The notes under the pieces were generated by a model. It ran no database searches, had not been told where the DNA came from, and worked only from the letters and a program-made list of their open reading frames with translations. From Lachnospiraceae bacterium (GTDB lineage: Bacteria; Bacillota; Clostridia; Lachnospirales; Lachnospiraceae), in the NCBI GenBank assembly GCA_017520425.1, contig JAFXFO010000011.1, positions 1 through 64,000 on the forward strand: a stretch of DNA of 64,000 bases, written 5' to 3'. The position numbers and the translations under genes were made by a program. Below, in pieces: positions 4,323 to 63,263 of the stretch (positions are counted from its first letter, which is position 1; each line of letters opens with the position of its first letter).

Positions 4323-5111
4323 TCATCTCACACCCTCCACAAATCCACGATACCCGCTACTCTGCCTTCGTTCCGCATATTCCTCACAAAGGTAGGTTTC
4401 CTGATAGATGTCAAAATCCTTATCCTCAAGATATTCAAAATACTCATCCTTGCTATTTACCTTTAAGCAAGCTTCTTTGTGTCTGCGGTAACAAAGCATA
4501 TTCCCGAAATCATCATTTCCATAAGGGGAATACTCCGAATACTGGCAGGTAAAGCAACATTTCAGATAATATTTCTCCTGCATCTGTCTGCTGATATCCA
4601 ATAAGGCCGACTCAAAATACAAAGTTTTCCTACTACTGCTGTACAACTCATCTTCCACCAATAAGACAAACTCTTCTACCTCGCAATTGTCCGGATAAAT
4701 TCGCTCACCATCACATAGATAACAAATACCTCGCTTTGTTTTTTCATCATCACGCTTTTCATACGAAAAAGCCAGTTTCAATTCACCGGGCACTTCCTGA
4801 TAATCACTCTTTCGAATTAACTTTATGGGCATTCTTAAATCCAAACCATAACCCTGTAATGCATAAAAATAGGGAAAGGTATCCTGCGCCAGTTCATTGT
4901 ATCCCCCATGCTTCAGAATCCGAAACTTTTCCCTCGCTTCCTCATATTGTTCCGGATTCGCCAATTCGAAATCTCCCAAGCTCGTTCCCCGAAAGGTCAC
5001 TCCATCCAAGGTAAAGGAAAGAGGATTTGTTTTATATTCCCCCTGTGTATTCTCAATTACAATATCCACATCATGATGCTCGTCTTTGTAATGCGCCTTA
5101 TAATATTCCAT
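4323..5111 (-). CDS. DUF6304-like hypothetical protein
   Basis: This 262-residue soluble protein begins MEYYKAHYKDEHHDVDIVIE and resembles the DUF6304 family of unknown function. Its C-terminal half has a Cys cluster (CCFTCQYSEYSP, then MLCYRRHKEAC) that could bind a metal. The ATG at 5111 follows GGGGGAAGTT. It lies 21 bp downstream of the epimerase gene on the same strand and is probably co-transcribed. The family call is from memory and is only moderately sure. Confidence 0.7.
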   Translation of the reverse strand: MEYYKAHYKDEHHDVDIVIENTQGEYKTNPLSFTLDGVTFRGTSLGDFELANPEQYEEAREKFRILKHGGYNELAQDTFPYFYALQGYGLDLRMPIKLIRKSDYQEVPGELKLAFSYEKRDDEKTKRGICYLCDGERIYPDNCEVEEFVLLVEDELYSSSRKTLYFESALLDISRQMQEKYYLKCCFTCQYSEYSPYGNDDFGNMLCYRRHKEACLKVNSKDEYFEYLEDKDFDIYQETYLCEEYAERRQSSGYRGFVEGVR

Positions 5112-38174: not shown

Positions 38175-39600
38175 GACTCTTTTCCCCCTTTCTTTCCACC
38201 TGTCTGCGATTCTTTGCAATCTGTAAGATATCCTTAAAGCTCATAACCTTACCATTGTAGAAAATCAATGACTCATATACCATTGCGGCAAGAGTGAATA
38301 ATGCCCACACAAAAACCACCAAAATCAACAGACCGATAATACTGATTCCCAAAGGTACCTTGCCTAACAAAAGACATGCAGGCAATATAAAAGGAGATGA
38401 AATAGGAACCAGACAGCAAATATTAGTAAAGGTAGGATTGCCTGCACCGCTATACATCATCATTACTACGCCAAAGCTTAAGAAGAAACCAACCAAAAGC
38501 AGCATCGTGTAAAGCTTGATACTTTCTGCCATTTCCTCCAGCTTACTTGCTGTGGCACCGCATAAGCCTGCCAGCATACAGAAAAATAGCATACCACATA
38601 TTACAGCCACCAATGCAATCAAAGCTTCGCCCACATTTACACCGGAAAGTAATTCCAGCATATCTGACGAGTCCATGACGGATACCTCCATTCCGGTACC
38701 GGCACTTGCAGCTACTTTCTCAGTCTCACCAAACATAGCCTTGTTAATGAAACCGGAAGCCACAAAGCAGGCAACCATAGCTACCGCCTGAATGATTACC
38801 ATCACTAAATTTGCTAATATCTTACCGGTAAGCAAAGCCATGGGACGCACATTAATCATGAGATACTCTACCACCTTGGTGGACTTTTCGGTGATGATGG
38901 ATGTGGCAATACTGCTACCACAAAGGTTAACAATCATGAATACCACCATTTGCAGTATATACATCACATTGTATTCATCCTCATTGATTGCCTGTGCCTC
39001 ATCCTCTTCCGGTACGGTATCTCCGGCTTCTGTCACAAACTCCAGCTTGGTATCCACGGGACGATTTAAGAAATCCAGCTGCTCCTGGGATACCTGGATA
39101 GCATTGATTCTTTCTTCATCAAAATAATTCTTAAAGGTATCTGCCAGCTTCTGGGCATCGTCATTCTTCAAGTCTGCATTGGAGGCCTTAACGAAGGTCA
39201 GGTTAAAATAGCCTGCCTCTTCATAGGTCATGTGCACGATAACCTCTTTGCTCTTTTCGCCTTCTTTATCCTTGCTCTTTTCCTCCAAAGCCTTCACATG
39301 ATCGTCAAAGCTCATAGTGGGGGCAAGATTTATTTTTACATCCTTAAAACCTTCATCCGCAAGGGACTGGGTGTAATCGATGGGCAAGCCCACCTCGTCA
39401 TAAACGGTAAATTCCGTTACTTCGCAATGATATGCTTCTTCCTCACTATCCATGTTATTGAACAAACTCACCACGGGCTTGGCCAGAAGCAGTATCAAGC
39501 AACCTGCAATTAAAAAGCCTTTATAAGCCTTTCCCTTCATTCCCTGTTCCAGAGTGAAGCGGAAGACCTCTTTCCAGCCTATGTACTCACTCTTCCTCAT
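38167..39600 (-). CDS. ABC-2 type permease (NatB-like, first)
   Basis: 477 residues. A helix near residues 27-45 is followed by an extracytoplasmic domain (about 50-220) and six C-terminal helices. The start MRKSEYIGWKEVFRFTLEQG parallels the next permease (MNRSLFHGWRDVFSFTFKQG), so the two are paralogues from an old duplication. It overlaps the ATPase gene by 14 bp. Confidence 0.87.
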   Translation of the reverse strand: MRKSEYIGWKEVFRFTLEQGMKGKAYKGFLIAGCLILLLAKPVVSLFNNMDSEEEAYHCEVTEFTVYDEVGLPIDYTQSLADEGFKDVKINLAPTMSFDDHVKALEEKSKDKEGEKSKEVIVHMTYEEAGYFNLTFVKASNADLKNDDAQKLADTFKNYFDEERINAIQVSQEQLDFLNRPVDTKLEFVTEAGDTVPEEDEAQAINEDEYNVMYILQMVVFMIVNLCGSSIATSIITEKSTKVVEYLMINVRPMALLTGKILANLVMVIIQAVAMVACFVASGFINKAMFGETEKVAASAGTGMEVSVMDSSDMLELLSGVNVGEALIALVAVICGMLFFCMLAGLCGATASKLEEMAESIKLYTMLLLVGFFLSFGVVMMMYSGAGNPTFTNICCLVPISSPFILPACLLLGKVPLGISIIGLLILVVFVWALFTLAAMVYESLIFYNGKVMSFKDILQIAKNRRQVERKGEKSHE

Positions 39601-40531
39601 TTGCTGCCCCTGCTTTCTCTACGAATATTTCGTGCAAAGAAGGCTCACGCAATTCGAAGCGGACTACCTTTTTGTTTTCCTTCAACAAATCAGCCAAAAA
39701 TGCATTGGCCTGTTCTTCACCGGTTACCTTCAGCTGTGTGCCGTCGGGAGTATCGTTTACAACAGGAAGTGCATGCTTTTCAATCAGGTCTGCAAAGGAC
39801 TCGTCACATTTTACCATCAGGTTTACACGGCCGTAGCCTTTCTTAATCTCGTTCAAGTCACCCTGAAGCACTGCCTTACCACGATTCAAAATGGTGATAT
39901 CCTTACAGAATTCTTCGATGGTGAACATCTGGTGGGATGACATAATCAAATACTTGCCCTTGCTGATTTCTTCACGGATAATACCCTTGAATAAATCGGT
40001 GTTTACAGGATCCAAACCACTTAAGGGCTCGTCTAATATTAATAATTCCGGCTCGGAAAGAAGTGCAGCCATAAGCTGAATCTTCTGCTGGTTACCCTTA
40101 GAAAGTTGTTCTGCTGTCTTAGGTTTCTCCGGCTTCTTACCCTTTACCTTCTTAGGGGGATAAAGGTATTCTTCCACTTCCAGACGCTCTGCCCAGTATT
40201 TAATACGCTGCTTGGCAGTCGCTTTATCCACGCCCTTCAGCTTTGCAAAGTAAAGCAGCTGGTCCATCAGGGTATACTTTGGATACAGACCTCTTTCTTC
40301 TGCCAGATAGCCCACGTTCATATTCATGGGGTCGATGGGCTTTCCATTCCAGAGAACTTCTCCGCTGTCCTTGGCAAGCATGCCTAAGATCATACGGATG
40401 GATGTGGTTTTGCCGGCACCGTTGGTACCCAAAAGTGCGTACACGCCGGGCTCTTTGAGTTCAAATGACAGGTTGTCAACAACCGTCTTTGAGCCGTAGG
40501 TTTTTGTTAGATTCTTGACTTCTAAAGACAT
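39587..40531 (-). CDS. ABC transporter ATP-binding protein (NatA-like)
   Basis: 314 residues. Walker A GTNGAGKT, signature LSKGNQQK, Walker B LLILDEPLSGLD and the switch His in MSSHQM are all present, with a C-terminal DUF4162-like extension of about 85 residues. ATG 40531 follows AAGGAGGAGAAA. It is first in a three-gene operon with two paralogous permeases and is preceded by rod leader copy A. Confidence 0.93.
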   Translation of the reverse strand: MSLEVKNLTKTYGSKTVVDNLSFELKEPGVYALLGTNGAGKTTSIRMILGMLAKDSGEVLWNGKPIDPMNMNVGYLAEERGLYPKYTLMDQLLYFAKLKGVDKATAKQRIKYWAERLEVEEYLYPPKKVKGKKPEKPKTAEQLSKGNQQKIQLMAALLSEPELLILDEPLSGLDPVNTDLFKGIIREEISKGKYLIMSSHQMFTIEEFCKDITILNRGKAVLQGDLNEIKKGYGRVNLMVKCDESFADLIEKHALPVVNDTPDGTQLKVTGEEQANAFLADLLKENKKVVRFELREPSLHEIFVEKAGAANEEE

Positions 40532-40554
40532 TTTCTCCTCCTTGTTTTCCGTCC

Positions 40555-40710
40555 GTGTCGGAAGGTATACCAGTCACTCACACACCGGATAAAAAACATG
40601 TCCCTTGTCCTGTGTGCCCTGTTCGGACGTAACGTCCGCACCGGTCACACATTCCTTCGGTACCTGTTCTTTTATACGGTGCATTACGTGACAAGTATAC
40701 CCTCCGACAC
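40555..40710 (-). ncRNA. Rod-shaped leader, copy A (upstream of the ABC operon)
   Basis: A 156-nt near-perfect dyad. GTGTCGGA pairs with TCCGACAC, GGTATAC with GTATACC, and GTCAC with GTGAC (left 40555-40577, right 40688-40710). An inner helix follows, CACCG.ATAAAA with TTTTAT.CGGTG, then TGTGTG/CACACA and a GC-rich hairpin (CGGAC/GTCCG). On the minus strand a TATAAT (40735-40730) lies 19 nt before it, and the start codon lies 23 nt after it with AAGGAGG between. Copy B has the same layout and conserved inner blocks, but different stem sequences. Function unknown. Confidence 0.75.
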
Positions 40711-40778
40711 TAGTCGGTTCCTCATAGAAATTATATTAATAAATACTCAAGTTCGGTTTGTTAGATCGCTTTGAGTAG

Positions 40779-41549
40779 TTATTTCAGTTTGGGGTATAGG
40801 TTGTATGCATTCCTCGTGGTGGTTTTTTGTACTTCTTCAAGAGATATGCCCTTTATTTGGGCGATTTGTTCCACCACGTGGGTTAGTTTGCGGGAATCGT
40901 TGCGTTTGCCCCGGAAAGGTACCGGTGCCAGATAAGGGCTGTCGGTTTCCAATACCATGCGGTCAAGGGGTAAGTATTCCACTACTTCTTTTAGTTTGCG
41001 GCCGTTGCCAAAGGTGACCACACCGCCGATGCCGAAGTAAAAGCCCATATCCAGGAAGGTTTTAGCCAGCTCTTTGCTGTAAGAATAGCAGTGCACCACA
41101 CCGCCCAAATCCCGGGCATTCTCAGCTTTCATGATATCCACTGTATCCTGGGCTGCATCCCTGGAATGGATCACCACGGGAAGCTTCACTTCCCTGGCCA
41201 GTGCCAGCTGACGGACAAACCATTTTCTCTGAATGGCACGGTCCGGCTCATCCCAATAATAATCCAGGCCGATTTCACCTACTGCCACGCATTTTTCCAA
41301 TGCGCAATTTTCCCGAATCCATTCTATATCGCTTTCGGTCAATTCGCCGCTGTCCGTGGGGTGAATCCCCAAGGCGCCGTAAACAAAGTCATACTGCTCC
41401 ATTAACTGTATGGTCCGCTTGCAGGCACCCAGGCTGGAACCGATATTCACAATGCGTTCTACTCCTGCACCTTGCATGCTTTGCAATAATTCTGCACGGT
41501 CTTCATCGAAGGCCTTGTCATCATAATGGGCATGTGTATCGATGATCAT
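40779..41549 (-). CDS. tatD: TatD family hydrolase
   Basis: 256-residue metal-dependent DNase/hydrolase of the TatD family. The metal motifs are DTHAHYDD near the start, VGEIGLDYYWD, VIHSRDA, VVHCYS and ETDSPYL. The length is standard. It overlaps the upstream dehydrogenase gene by 4 bp (ATGA). Roles proposed for the family are DNA repair and 3'-end processing. A weak dyad at 40745-40778 may end the transcript. Confidence 0.95.
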   Translation of the reverse strand: MIIDTHAHYDDKAFDEDRAELLQSMQGAGVERIVNIGSSLGACKRTIQLMEQYDFVYGALGIHPTDSGELTESDIEWIRENCALEKCVAVGEIGLDYYWDEPDRAIQRKWFVRQLALAREVKLPVVIHSRDAAQDTVDIMKAENARDLGGVVHCYSYSKELAKTFLDMGFYFGIGGVVTFGNGRKLKEVVEYLPLDRMVLETDSPYLAPVPFRGKRNDSRKLTHVVEQIAQIKGISLEEVQKTTTRNAYNLYPKLK

Positions 41550-42607
41550 CCAAACACTTCCTCCATCTCTTTATAAAGACCGGCCAATCTTTCATAGGAC
41601 AAATCCGTCTCATTTAAGATGGTATAACGGTCCGGTCTGCTGGCTGAAGCCTGCTGCCAGGCTGCCACGAATATTTCTTCGGTGATGCCCCAGCTTGAGG
41701 GCTTCACAGGTAATTTATATTGTTTCAACAATCTGGTAATCTTGGCAATATTGCGGTTCTGGAAAATACATGCTCCGTAGCTTCCCATAGCCACTGCAAT
41801 ACCGTGTGTCACATTCACCTGCTCACTGAAATTCTCCTCCAACGCATGGCAGAATAAATGCTCGGAACCGCTTGCAGGTCTGGAATCTCCGGCGATTTCC
41901 ATAGCCAATCCGCCCATTACCAGTGCCTGGGTCAGCAGCTTGATAAAGTCCTTGCTTTTTAAGGGTAACTCCTCGCTATAGCAAATGGTATTAAATGCCA
42001 TCTTGGAAATCATGTAGGCGAAGTCATCCACCTTGCTGTTGCCCACGGTATGAGCCAGCTTCCAGTCATTCAGTGCGGTATATTTACTGACAGTGTCGCC
42101 GATTCCTGCCAAAAGCTGGCGGTCCGGCGCACCGGTTATCACATTCACATCTACGATGATGGCATCGGGAATGGTACATTTGAAGGTCTTACGGGCTTTG
42201 CCCTCGGTACCCAGTACTGCCACGGGAGATGCCAGGCTATCATTACTCAAGGTAGTGGGCAGGCAAAGGTACATTGCCTTGCTGACAAAAGCAGCATATT
42301 TAGCCAAATCCAGCACGGTACCGCCACCAAAGCCGATGATTACATTCACATTATTCATGCAGGCATACTTGGCCAAAGCCACAGCATCCTCGAAATAATT
42401 ATTCTGTACCAGATACACTTCCGACTTGTCAAAATCGTTCTGAAGCGCCCCGATAATATCTCCAAAAAGAGTCTGTAAATTAGAGTCTGTCACAATAATC
42501 ACTTTCTTCTTTTTCATATCCGGCACACAATCGGCCATCACTTCATCCACCCGCTCAAAAATACCTTCCTGAACAATTAAATGATAGGGCAATCTGAAAT
42601 TATTCAT
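41546..42607 (-). CDS. sn-glycerol-1-phosphate dehydrogenase-like enzyme (EgsA/AraM family)
   Basis: 353 residues. Members reduce dihydroxyacetone phosphate to glycerol-1-phosphate with NAD(P)H. Seen here are the nucleotide loop IGFGGGTVLDLAKYAA, TTLSNDSLASPVAVLG, and the metal ligands Asp in LAGIGDTVSKYTALNDW, His in SGSEHLFCHAL and His in VTHGIAVAMG. ATG 42607 follows AAGGAGG; upstream frames run through rod leader B and were rejected. TatD follows with a 4-bp overlap. In bacteria the product may be used for unusual lipids or glycans; other iron-type dehydrogenase activities cannot be excluded. Confidence 0.85.
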   Translation of the reverse strand: MNNFRLPYHLIVQEGIFERVDEVMADCVPDMKKKKVIIVTDSNLQTLFGDIIGALQNDFDKSEVYLVQNNYFEDAVALAKYACMNNVNVIIGFGGGTVLDLAKYAAFVSKAMYLCLPTTLSNDSLASPVAVLGTEGKARKTFKCTIPDAIIVDVNVITGAPDRQLLAGIGDTVSKYTALNDWKLAHTVGNSKVDDFAYMISKMAFNTICYSEELPLKSKDFIKLLTQALVMGGLAMEIAGDSRPASGSEHLFCHALEENFSEQVNVTHGIAVAMGSYGACIFQNRNIAKITRLLKQYKLPVKPSSWGITEEIFVAAWQQASASRPDRYTILNETDLSYERLAGLYKEMEEVFG

Positions 42608-42631
42608 GTGGGGCCTCCTTCGCATATTTCC

Positions 42632-42788
42632 GTGCTTGGGCATATAGGTAGTATTCACACACCGGATAAAAAACATTCTCCTTAATCTGTGTGCCATATG
42701 CCGGACAGGTTTGTCAGTCAGTGACACACAGATTTCGTCGACTGTTCTTTTATACGGTGCATTACATACTACCTATATACCCAAACAC
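42632..42788 (-). ncRNA. Rod-shaped leader, copy B (upstream of the dehydrogenase-tatD operon)
   Basis: A 157-nt dyad with the same plan as copy A. The outer arms (42632-42654 and 42766-42788) pair with only two mismatches, yet their sequence (TATAGGTAGTAT core) is unlike copy A. The inner blocks CACACACCGGATAAAAAACAT and CTGTTCTTTTATACGGTGCA are nearly identical to copy A. A middle stem AATCTGTGTG/CACACAGATT extends the TGTGTG stem of copy A. On the minus strand a TATAAT (42812-42807) lies 18 nt before it, and the ATG lies 24 nt after it. Function unknown. Confidence 0.75.
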
Positions 42789-42825
42789 TGGGTTATGGAA
42801 CAAAACATTATAATAATATATCAAT

Positions 42826-43494
42826 TTAAGGGTTCTGAATATTTCTCAGATACCCTTTTACTTCTAAAAGGGTTTCGAGGATTGCTTCCGAAAGGCTTCG
42901 CATTTCGTCGGTGGGGGGCATGAGGTCAGGCACCATCAGGGGGCGTAAATGTCCGGATGCCGCGGCACGGATACCATTGTAGGAATCTTCGATGGCGAAG
43001 GATTCTTCCGGTGCAACGCCTAACTCTTCGCATGCCTTTAGAAAAATATCCGGCTGGGGCTTGCTGCGGGTCACCATATCTCCTCCCACAATCACTTGGA
43101 AGTATTCCAGGATGCCTGCGTCACGCAACTGCTGTACCACCACTTCTGTACGTGTGGAGGAGGCCAGAGCCACCTTTATGCCTGTTTCCTTCAAATATTT
43201 TAGCAATTCTACCACACCGATTTTCATGGGTAGTCTGCCACCATCGTAATTATCATGGTAAATCTTGGACATTTCAGCTTTGTATGCATCATAGGGGAAA
43301 TCACAACCGTAGCGGTCTAAGAATTTCTCCTTGGTTTCCACACCGTTCACGCCCAAGCATTCGTTACAAGCCTCTTCGATATCCGGGATGGCGTATTTTT
43401 CTGCTACCACTTTCCAGCAATCGATTACCAAGCGCTCGGAATCAAATATAATACCGTCCATATCAAAAACCACTGCTTTGAAATCCATAAGCAT
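42826..43494 (-). CDS. HAD-superfamily phosphatase (beta-phosphoglucomutase-like)
   Basis: 222 residues. HAD motif I VVFDMDGIIFDSE (nucleophile and acid Asp) is present, with motif II ALASST, motif III Lys in RSKPQPDIFL and motif IV IEDSYNGIRAA. The cap domain between motifs I and II fits the PGMB/GPH type. Substrate unknown, probably a small phosphate ester. It has its own promoter and lies upstream of rod leader B. Confidence 0.93.
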   Translation of the reverse strand: MLMDFKAVVFDMDGIIFDSERLVIDCWKVVAEKYAIPDIEEACNECLGVNGVETKEKFLDRYGCDFPYDAYKAEMSKIYHDNYDGGRLPMKIGVVELLKYLKETGIKVALASSTRTEVVVQQLRDAGILEYFQVIVGGDMVTRSKPQPDIFLKACEELGVAPEESFAIEDSYNGIRAAASGHLRPLMVPDLMPPTDEMRSLSEAILETLLEVKGYLRNIQNP

Positions 43495-61359: not shown

Positions 61360-62802
61360 TCACAAAAGCACGTTTAAATGCTGTATTTCCGGGTCCTCCG
61401 GTCCGGTCATGGAACAGCCCTTCACACGTGCATATTCTATATAATCCAAAATCTCCCTGGTAATCCGTTCTCCGGGTGCCAGAATCGGGATCCCCGGAGG
61501 ATAACACATGACAAACTCATTACAAACCAATCCCGCACTCTCCTGAATGGGTACACTCTTCTTCTGCGCATAAAAGGCCTCCTGGGGACTACATACCACC
61601 TCCGGGTCGATGTACTCCTGACTGAGTAATCCGCTGCTGTCCTTCTGGAATCTGCGCCGGATTTCCGTCAGGGCACTTACCAGACGCTCCAGCTCCTGAG
61701 GTCTGTCGCCGATGGATAGATAAGCCAATATATTGCCGATGTCACCAAACTCAATCTGGATGTCATACTCATCTCTTAAAAGGTCATAAACCTCAATGCC
61801 CGCCAGACCGATGTCCCTGGTATGTATACTGAGCTTGGTGGGGTCGAAATCATAGATGGAATTGCCGTTTACCAACTCCCTGCCAAAGGCATAATATCCA
61901 CCGATTTCATTGATTTCCTCCCTGGCATACTCTGCCATCCGGATCACCTTATCAAAAACTTCCCGGCCCCGAAGTGCCAGATTCCGCCTGCTGATATCCA
62001 GACTGGACATGAGCAAATAGCTTCCGGAAGTGGTCTGGGTCAGATTAATAATCTGGCGCACATGTCCCACATTCATATTGGGGCCTATGAGAAGCAAACT
62101 GGACTGGGTCAGGCTGCCACCGCTCTTATGCATGGACACGGCTGCCATATCCGCTCCTGCCGCCATGGCCGACACCGGCATATTCTCCCCGAAATAAAAA
62201 TGAGTCCCGTGAGCTTCATCCGCCAGACAATACATGCCTGCATCATGGGCCATTTTAACGATAGCTTTGATATCACTGCAAATGCCATAATAGGTAGGAT
62301 TGTTCACAAACACTGCCACTGCGTCCGGATGCTTTTCAATAGCCTTGGCAACCTGCTCCCGCTGCATGCCCAGAGAGATGCCAAGCCTATGGTCCACCTC
62401 CGGATTTACATACACAGGTACCGCACCGCAAAGCACCAGTGCATTGATGACACTGCGGTGAACGTTTCGGGGTAGTATGATTTTGTCCCCTCTTTTACAA
62501 GTGGAAAGAATCATACTCTGGACAGAACTGGTGGTGCCGCCCACCATTAAAAAAGCATGGGCCGCTCCAAAGGCCTCTGCAGCCAATTGCTCCGCCTCCT
62601 GTATGACGGACACCGGATGGCACAGGTTGTCCAAGGGTTTCATACTGTTTACATCGATACTGACACATTTCTCTCCTAAAAACTCCGCCAGTTCGGGATT
62701 GCCCCGGCCGTGCTTATGTCCCGGCACATCAAAGGGTACTACCCTCATCTGACGGAAAGTCTGTAAGGCTTCATAAATAGGTGCTTCATTTTGATTTAAC
62801 AT
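61360..62802 (-). CDS. speA: Arginine decarboxylase (Orn/Lys/Arg decarboxylase class I fold)
   Basis: 480 residues, PLP-dependent aminotransferase-fold decarboxylase. Features are VPFDVPGHKHGRGNPEL, FLMVGGTTSSVQSMIL, LADEAHGTHFYFGE and the PLP-lysine AVSMHKSGGSLTQSS, with a C-terminal domain with YPPGIPILAPGERIT. It starts the route arginine to agmatine. ATG 62802 follows GGAGGAACCCT, directly after an attenuator-like terminator. An upstream in-frame extension covers the leader RNA and is not used. Lysine decarboxylase cannot be excluded by sequence alone, but speB downstream favours arginine. Confidence 0.9.
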   Translation of the reverse strand: MLNQNEAPIYEALQTFRQMRVVPFDVPGHKHGRGNPELAEFLGEKCVSIDVNSMKPLDNLCHPVSVIQEAEQLAAEAFGAAHAFLMVGGTTSSVQSMILSTCKRGDKIILPRNVHRSVINALVLCGAVPVYVNPEVDHRLGISLGMQREQVAKAIEKHPDAVAVFVNNPTYYGICSDIKAIVKMAHDAGMYCLADEAHGTHFYFGENMPVSAMAAGADMAAVSMHKSGGSLTQSSLLLIGPNMNVGHVRQIINLTQTTSGSYLLMSSLDISRRNLALRGREVFDKVIRMAEYAREEINEIGGYYAFGRELVNGNSIYDFDPTKLSIHTRDIGLAGIEVYDLLRDEYDIQIEFGDIGNILAYLSIGDRPQELERLVSALTEIRRRFQKDSSGLLSQEYIDPEVVCSPQEAFYAQKKSVPIQESAGLVCNEFVMCYPPGIPILAPGERITREILDYIEYARVKGCSMTGPEDPEIQHLNVLL

Positions 62803-62813
62803 AGGGTTCCTCC

Positions 62814-62969
62814 AAAAAAATAAAGAGCACAAGTCATTTACACAACTTGCGCTCCATTCATCTGTTTTTATCCGATTTAAGGCAATGAGACCGGCACTCA
62901 GTCCGGCTAACACTTTACCTCGCTAAAGTCTTTGGATGAATATATAGGATTTCAGAGTCTATATAGCAA
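62814..62969 (-). promoter_or_regulatory. Polyamine operon promoter and attenuator-like leader
   Basis: On the minus strand TTGCTA (62969-62964), a 17-bp spacer and TATATA (62946-62941) start a leader of about 130 nt. It holds hairpins ACTTTA/TAAAGT (62929-62912) and GCCGG/CCGGT. A strong terminator follows, GAGCGCAAGT with ACTTGTGCTC, then TTTATTTTTTT (ending 62814), placed between promoter and speA. This predicts control by transcription attenuation; the sensed signal is unknown. The rest of 62970-63263 shows only short dyads. Confidence 0.65.
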
Positions 62970-63263
62970 CAATACTTTTACTACTCTTATTGACCGTTTC
63001 ACAAGTTTGTGCGGATGCACATTTCGGTTATAAAGTAACCAACTCAGAAATTTGAGCTTCTAACTCAATCAATAAGGCGGCAAGCCGCCAATCGGCAGTG
63101 GACCCGGCTGTCCGTATGGCCTCGACTCCCGTAGGAGTGGTCCGTAAAAATTGCTTGGAAAGACTCTGTCAAAGATTCATTCCACAGACATTTATAAAGC
63201 ATGTAAACAGAAAAGTCAATGCTTTTTTATCGACAAATTTACGGAAAACGTTATCAATTTTAT

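Follow-up and report, generated by a model that had tools for sequence, protein, structure and literature searches.

Rod-shaped sequences in a Lachnospiraceae genome as probable copies of a dispersed palindromic repeat kept at the RNA level

Two rod-shaped sequences, rods A and B, found in a 64-kb stretch of Lachnospiraceae DNA (the window; 64,000 nucleotides of contig JAFXFO010000011.1), are on balance best explained as copies of a dispersed palindromic repeat of ~170 bp that is kept at the RNA level and may have a role in mRNA stability. The parts of this reading differ in strength. That the rods belong to a dispersed palindromic repeat family, resembling MITEs or the YPAL element, we regard as very likely, and selection on the rods at the RNA level as quite likely; a role in RNase action or mRNA stability, drawn from analogy, is offered as a tentative suggestion. 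The family is spread in one clade of a Lachnospiraceae genus. Each copy is built in layers, with a nearly invariant core helix containing fixed internal loops, a variable inner arm and a variable outer stem; some copies add a further, outermost arm in which the host flank is repeated in inverted form.

Results

Two stable rods precede genes in the window

Rod A (copy C4a; 40555..40710, with a model match at 40547-40717) lies before a gene for an ABC transporter ATPase (39587..40531; Pfam ABC_tran and DrrA1-3_C), and rod B (copy C4b; 42632..42788, model match 42624-42795) before a gene of the iron-containing alcohol dehydrogenase family (41546..42607; Pfam Fe-ADH_2 and Fe-ADH), which the preliminary description had called glycerol-1-phosphate-dehydrogenase-like. 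A TatD-type DNase gene (40779..41549; Pfam TatD_DNase) separates them, and all of these features are on the minus strand. The segment ends, a TATAAT 18-19 nt upstream and a distance of 23-24 nt from rod to ATG with GGAGG in between could all be read in the minus-strand sequence as originally described. The core helix is common to the two rods: its 5′ strand is an exact match, TGCACCGTATAAAAGAACA, at 40665..40683 (minus) in rod A and 42743..42761 (minus) in rod B, and its 3′ strand, ATGTTTTTTATCCGGTGTGTGA, is likewise letter for letter the same at 40578..40599 (minus) and 42655..42676 (minus) and pairs with the 5′ strand in the predicted fold. Aligned over the shared core blocks, the rods are identical at 23/23 and 21/21 letters. 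In the outer stems, which still pair, agreement drops to 15/31 and 13/31 positions, in keeping with the preliminary description.

Each rod was predicted to fold as a single unbranched rod, with a free energy of -81.2 kcal/mol for rod A (z -10.3) and -82.8 kcal/mol for rod B (z -12.5), and none of 200 shuffles was equally stable in either case. A coarse fold scan of the window gave 58 pairs in 169 nt and 59 pairs in 162 nt for the rods, and comparable values for two other folds (52 pairs in 154 nt at 40304-40457 and 62 pairs in 234 nt at 4861-5094). Because the number of pairs is thus not unique in the window, the claim made for rods A and B rests on the shuffles and on the comparison with other copies.

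No promoter could be established ahead of either rod: a scan of 40400-42950 returned 5 sites against 4.7 expected in shuffles. The TATAAT upstream of rod B (42807..42812, minus) is a candidate that overlaps a 9-of-12 promoter-like site, TTCAGA-18-TATTAT (42839-42810); that upstream of rod A (40730..40735, minus) is a candidate by its letters, with no promoter-scan site there. Before orthologous rods in relatives the letters of the TATAAT vary.

The view that the rods belong to no known Rfam family was upheld: nothing at the rods exceeded the gathering cut-off in a search of the window with Rfam 15, the best match in a permissive search of the rods was a microRNA family with 30.7 bits where 120 were needed, and none of 18 rod loci gave a match to a rod above cut-off. 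A literature search turned up no described repeat that we recognised as this one.

The rods belong to a family of dispersed copies

DNA searches of the host genome (G000) gave 7 matches with one rod at the default limit and further ones with the other. Ten copies were aligned (alignment A1) to produce a covariance model, R1, of 172 positions; 35 of the 60 predicted pairs in A1 show a double change in at least one copy, and the R1 fold has 60 pairs and 0 branch points. Running such a model, the check put forward in the preliminary description, did find more copies, with double changes across those aligned. Rods A and B scored 150.6 and 175.2 bits, and the host genome holds 12 full sense-strand copies above 100 bits, the two rods included. 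The genomes compared throughout are drafts and the E-values rough. Two further host sequences have unusual architectures. An extended copy (C3:44457-44640; 50.4 bits) has the usual ends and, between core and inner arm, ~40 additional paired positions, so that it looks like one hairpin nested inside another. A short copy (C8:13320-13400; 44.4 bits) has an outer stem and core ends, the inner arm being absent, and sits in opposite orientation, with the full C8 copy on one side and the upstream gene on the other.

Nine of the 12 full copies precede a start codon, at 14-83 nt counted from the modelled edge, and all nine are sense to the gene; counting distinct leader loci, 11/11 are sense to the downstream ORF (9 in G000 and 2 in UBA4346; ORFs as read). 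The remaining three (C6, C34 and C3) are at gene 3′ ends. The nine downstream proteins fall into unrelated Pfam families: DUF1854, IlvD-type dehydratase, MatE, 2-hydroxyacid dehydrogenase, patatin, a thiamine-diphosphate oxidoreductase, a Mur-ligase-fold protein, an ABC ATPase and the iron-containing alcohol dehydrogenase family. Labels more specific than a Pfam family are our own reading of the sequences, and on this reading the thiamine-diphosphate oxidoreductase would be IorA and the Mur-ligase-fold protein FolC.

The leader position of 9/12 copies, together with the conserved internal loops described below, is what would be expected of an ordinary cis-regulatory leader (a riboswitch or a protein-binding autoregulatory element) that had been duplicated to several genes. 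We consider this very unlikely. The rods are not riboswitch-like, since the fold is unbranched and the downstream genes are unrelated; in addition, some copies are at 3′ ends, sister sites are rod-free, the scan found no terminator-like site at either window rod, and the GGAGG of the window copies lies outside the rod.

Rod-free sister sites indicate insertion

Twenty sites were fetched from relatives; the C8 site of G091 was aligned separately, the serA site of G085 and the DUF1854-gene and folC sites of G018 were re-read, and the ilvD and MATE sites of G002 were left out of the rod-free comparison. For five G000 copies (C10, C15, C25, C39 and C8) the corresponding G091 site was examined; all five of these sites were rod-free, and by eye no consistent target site duplication was seen in the five aligned empty sites. 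The stop-to-start spacer is 15 nt (G091) and 27 nt (G085) for iorA, 45 nt (G091), 22 nt (G085) and 17 nt (G016) for the patatin gene, 11 nt (G091) and 271 nt (G018) for the DUF1854 gene, and 129 nt (G018) for folC. The 271-nt spacer means that not every difference in spacer length is a rod. Given the rod-free G091 sites and the short spacers in relatives, C15 and C25 are best read as insertions in the G000 line. Conversely, all 7 G091 copies adjoin, by eye, the same gene as some G000 copy, which puts several copies already in the common ancestor; for C6/G91_12 and C3/G91_43 a single flanking gene is in common. At the 3′ end of murA the orientation of the rod relative to the gene is opposite in G000 (C3) and G091 (G91_43). 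The region 5′ of the patatin gene in G018 carries a different long rod (-133.2 kcal/mol over the 330 nt before the start codon), in a genome with no R2 match, and there may be other rod families in the genus.

The main alternative named in the preliminary description, a MITE-like mobile hairpin, holds alongside a selected RNA-like structure, as the 12 dispersed copies, the rod-free sister sites and the copies at 3′ ends indicate. Like MITEs, the rods are non-coding, shorter than 200 bp, dispersed in intergenic regions and matched by empty sites in relatives; terminal inverted repeats of constant sequence are what they do not have.

The family was found in few relatives

An initial set of 60 other genomes, of which 36 belong to the same genus, gave no copies with 45 candidates scored per genome. 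A pattern scan of one genome per species gave 8 hits, of which 5 were confirmed by R1 (4 loci in RGIG6281 and 1 in UBA4346); the other 3, in Mucilaginibacter, an archaeon and Chitinophaga, failed this confirmation. There are 7 sense copies in RGIG6281, which we take to be G091 (Lachnospiraceae) on the agreement of contig numbers, positions and scores, and 2 in UBA4346. In the genus scan (20 candidates scored per genome) the family was present in 3/138 genomes, namely the host G000, G091 and G085, and in the family-wide scan (7 candidates per genome) a match was obtained in 12/397 genomes, host included. Four out of four further genomes of the same genus were without copies when 150 candidates were scored in each; absences in relatives are soft throughout, as fixed numbers of candidates were scored per genome.

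Matches in other genera scored 35-76 bits and follow a plan in which a long inner stem is combined with an outer stem unique to each rod. By eye, 5/11 folded rods from other genera plainly show a CGGAC...GTCCG tip, as do 8/8 rods of G387, which have a common core. The arms of the eight G387 rods, again by eye, are marked by recurring TGTCCG/CGAACA and CGAAC/GTACG steps in which C·A or A·A mismatches occur. The rods of other Lachnospiraceae genera are either the same family or a sister family. A phage or plasmid origin was rejected: a blastn search with one rod against 72,556 plasmid and 50,697 phage records came back empty, and a search of viral contigs for an exact pattern also gave no match.

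Pairing is conserved in a manner that points to the RNA

Conservation of pairing was examined in an alignment of 23 copies (A3) fitted to R1, from which antisense matches of the same rods were removed by an E-value limit and the extended C3:44457 and short C8:13320 copies were left out. With pair counts that depend on this fitting to the model, 95.4% of 1370 cells pair, compared with 31-49% when the partners were slid, and there are 267 double-change cells against 73.8 in shuffles (0/500 shuffles as high). In the outermost helix each of the 9 pairs shows variation on both sides across the 23 copies. Internal loops are conserved, mismatches are strand-asymmetric, and one U·G pair is kept in 23/23 copies. 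The alignment contains 108 G·U cells against 14 A·C cells; leaving aside three near-fixed wobble columns the figures are 53 and 14, and G·U outnumbers A·C in 20/23 copies. A constraint acting on DNA only is an unlikely source of this excess, as it would give G·U no advantage over A·C. The sense strand also folds more stably than its complement in 12/12 G000, 7/7 G091, 2/2 UBA4346 and 1/2 G085 copies, a bias that is missing in other genera (5/8 and 6/10, with G263 and G386 left out). Judged from these sequences, the sense RNA is the strand that is kept.

Orthologous copies allow changes since insertion to be followed. Across the outer stems of seven G000/G091 ortholog pairs, 39/168 cells have changed: 21 are double changes that keep the pair, 11 are one-sided changes that still pair and 7 are broken, so that 32/39 pair. 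The core cells of the same seven pairs are unchanged in 115/126 cases. As far as predicted pairs can tell, the ortholog comparison shows that pairing has been kept after insertion.

Some outermost arms are inverted copies of host DNA

The left flank of C34, when inverted, matches the last 80 coding nucleotides of the convergent gene on the right at 60/80 positions. Inverted copies of a coding end were also found in its ortholog G91_116 (52/76), in G85_5 (25/32) and in G85_134 (17/19), and the share of 500 shuffles that scored as high for these four rows was 0, 0, 0 and 0.6%, respectively. All four rows, which represent three loci, top every one of 134 cross-locus comparisons; at 9/13 loci tested, C6 among them, a coding-end copy was not significant. 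A comparison of the flanks beyond the modelled stem exceeded all 200 shuffles in 8/23 copies (C39, C6, C34, G91_116, G91_43, G85_134, G85_5 and U52), and the right-hand arm of C39 is recognisable in the rod-free G091 site. Taken together, the coding-end copies, the flank comparison and the C39 arm indicate that the outermost arm in some copies is an inverted duplication of host DNA. Identity between these coding copies and the gene is now 68-89%, whereas the rod has remained paired. Where a coding-end copy is significant, at three loci, the original is on the 3′ side of the rod; in the reciprocal tests 1/10 (G465) was above its 90 controls, and so we claim no fixed polarity for the host copy.

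Stems that differ can thus also arise by fold-back copying. The preliminary description had argued from differing but paired stems to a selected RNA structure rather than duplication; the structured, RNA-like rod in sense leaders stands, but duplication is not excluded by such stems, since the outermost one can be inverted host flank.

An alternative origin for the outer stem is that a core hairpin was inserted into existing dyad symmetries such as terminators, the outer stem being an old host stem, as reported for YPAL targets. A convergent gene end does lie within 60 nt of the modelled 3′ edge in 14/20 rods of other genera (the first G346 copy, on a short locus, was left out). The gene that carries rod G85_5 in G085 is followed in G000 and G091 by an ordinary hairpin and no rod, as would also suit such an origin; in this comparison, which used only G000, G091 and rod rows, the arms of the hairpin differ between G000 and G091 yet by eye still look complementary. 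A terminator would not explain inverted copies that reach into coding sequence, as at C34 (60/80 nt), or the C39 copy, which is in a promoter region, and we judge this origin to be unlikely.

Arms also appear to have been exchanged between neighbouring copies. At the window locus the outer strands of G000 and G091 agree by position (27/31, 27/31, 30/31 and 27/31), whereas the inner arms agree crosswise (C4a with G91_31b, 55/64; C4b with G91_31a, 49/66) and only at 35/64 and 37/64 when compared in the same place. The simplest reading of these sequences is a swap of inner arms between neighbouring copies through the shared core. Such swapping, and the strand-asymmetric mismatches of a near-palindrome, would fit a DNA site at which a recombinase or nicking enzyme (attC-like or HUH-like) recognises the folded single strand or cruciform, in which case the RNA would be incidental. 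This too has very little probability in our estimation: no such enzyme was noticed among the ORFs read beside the copies, and the sense bias in stability and sense placement before genes suit an RNA better.

The most serious competitor is a passive mobile hairpin, with an inert RNA, whose arms are kept alike by template switching during replication alone. One template-switch event is reported to be able to create a perfect stem or restore pairing and to make reverse-complement repeats (PMC8794818), and template switching is reported to homogenise arms and invert spacers (PMC8604942). The inverted copies of host flank, the flipped rod beside murA and the 21/39 changed outer-stem cells that are double changes are all in keeping with this process, and template switching can be the source of the host copies, of part of the compensation and of the flipped murA rod. 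However, strand-neutral copying predicts no excess of G·U, and 53 G·U against 14 A·C cells were counted outside the wobble columns; nor does it predict a U·G pair kept in 23/23 copies or leader copies that are sense in 11/11 cases. The G·U excess and the sense-only leader placement point to a role for the RNA that template switching does not account for, and a wholly passive repeat is considerably less probable than one kept at the RNA level.

Discussion

A repeat kept at the RNA level could work as follows. Copies that landed before a ribosome site would be transcribed within the mRNA leader, where the rod would shield or mark the transcript, and the copy would be kept. The rod would most likely be a substrate for an RNase III-type double-strand RNase that determines how stable the downstream message is, while fold-back (template-switch) copying at the hairpin would generate the inverted host copies and help the arms to stay complementary. 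We take mRNA processing or stability as the likeliest role by analogy with NEMIS and ERIC, as these are described in PMC2229807.

Several known systems are similar in description. The bcr1 element of the Bacillus cereus group is a dispersed repeat of ~155 bp with a conserved RNA fold, and the rods are like it, as these general descriptions go, in being dispersed and in having such a fold. YPAL/RU-2 of Yersinia is ~168 bp and intergenic, with internal inverted repeats, empty and filled sites, and targets at or beside dyad symmetry (PMC2229807). The rods resemble it, by description and not by sequence, in size, intergenic location, inverted repeats and empty and filled sites, but they differ in that no target duplication is readable, leader copies are all sense and host gene ends are inverted. 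The small ERIC and NEMIS/Correia repeats form stem-loops in transcripts that affect the neighbouring mRNA, RNase III having been proposed for NEMIS, and according to the same paper (PMC2229807) they generally have fixed terminal repeats; compared by description, the rods have outer stems that differ from copy to copy. The study of Monttinen and Loytynoja, 2022 (PMC8794818) concerns a mutation process acting on RNA genes, whereas the rods are a dispersed repeat family.

The rods might even represent a new class of bacterial insertion. The hairpin would attach to a host end and then fold back, leaving an inverted copy of the flank and a unique stem at every insertion; in leaders the sense RNA rod would afterwards be recruited as an mRNA element. 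The class would include the similarly planned rods of other Lachnospiraceae genera. We think this rather improbable as a whole. Whatever the class, covarying stems between dispersed copies can have two sources, birth by inverted copying and later compensation, and the ortholog pairs and empty sites of this family let the two be told apart. The inserted palindrome comes between genes that are direct neighbours in relatives and provides them with a structured leader, and the rod-free sister sites allow direct tests.

A separate RNA feature was seen elsewhere in the window. Positions 63092-63143 (minus strand) match the Rfam family SpF59_sRNA (RF02440), named for Streptococcus, with 68.6 bits against a cut-off of 37.2, and the match adjoins a gene of the Orn/Lys/Arg decarboxylase family (61363-62913) and an ORF with a ThuA domain.
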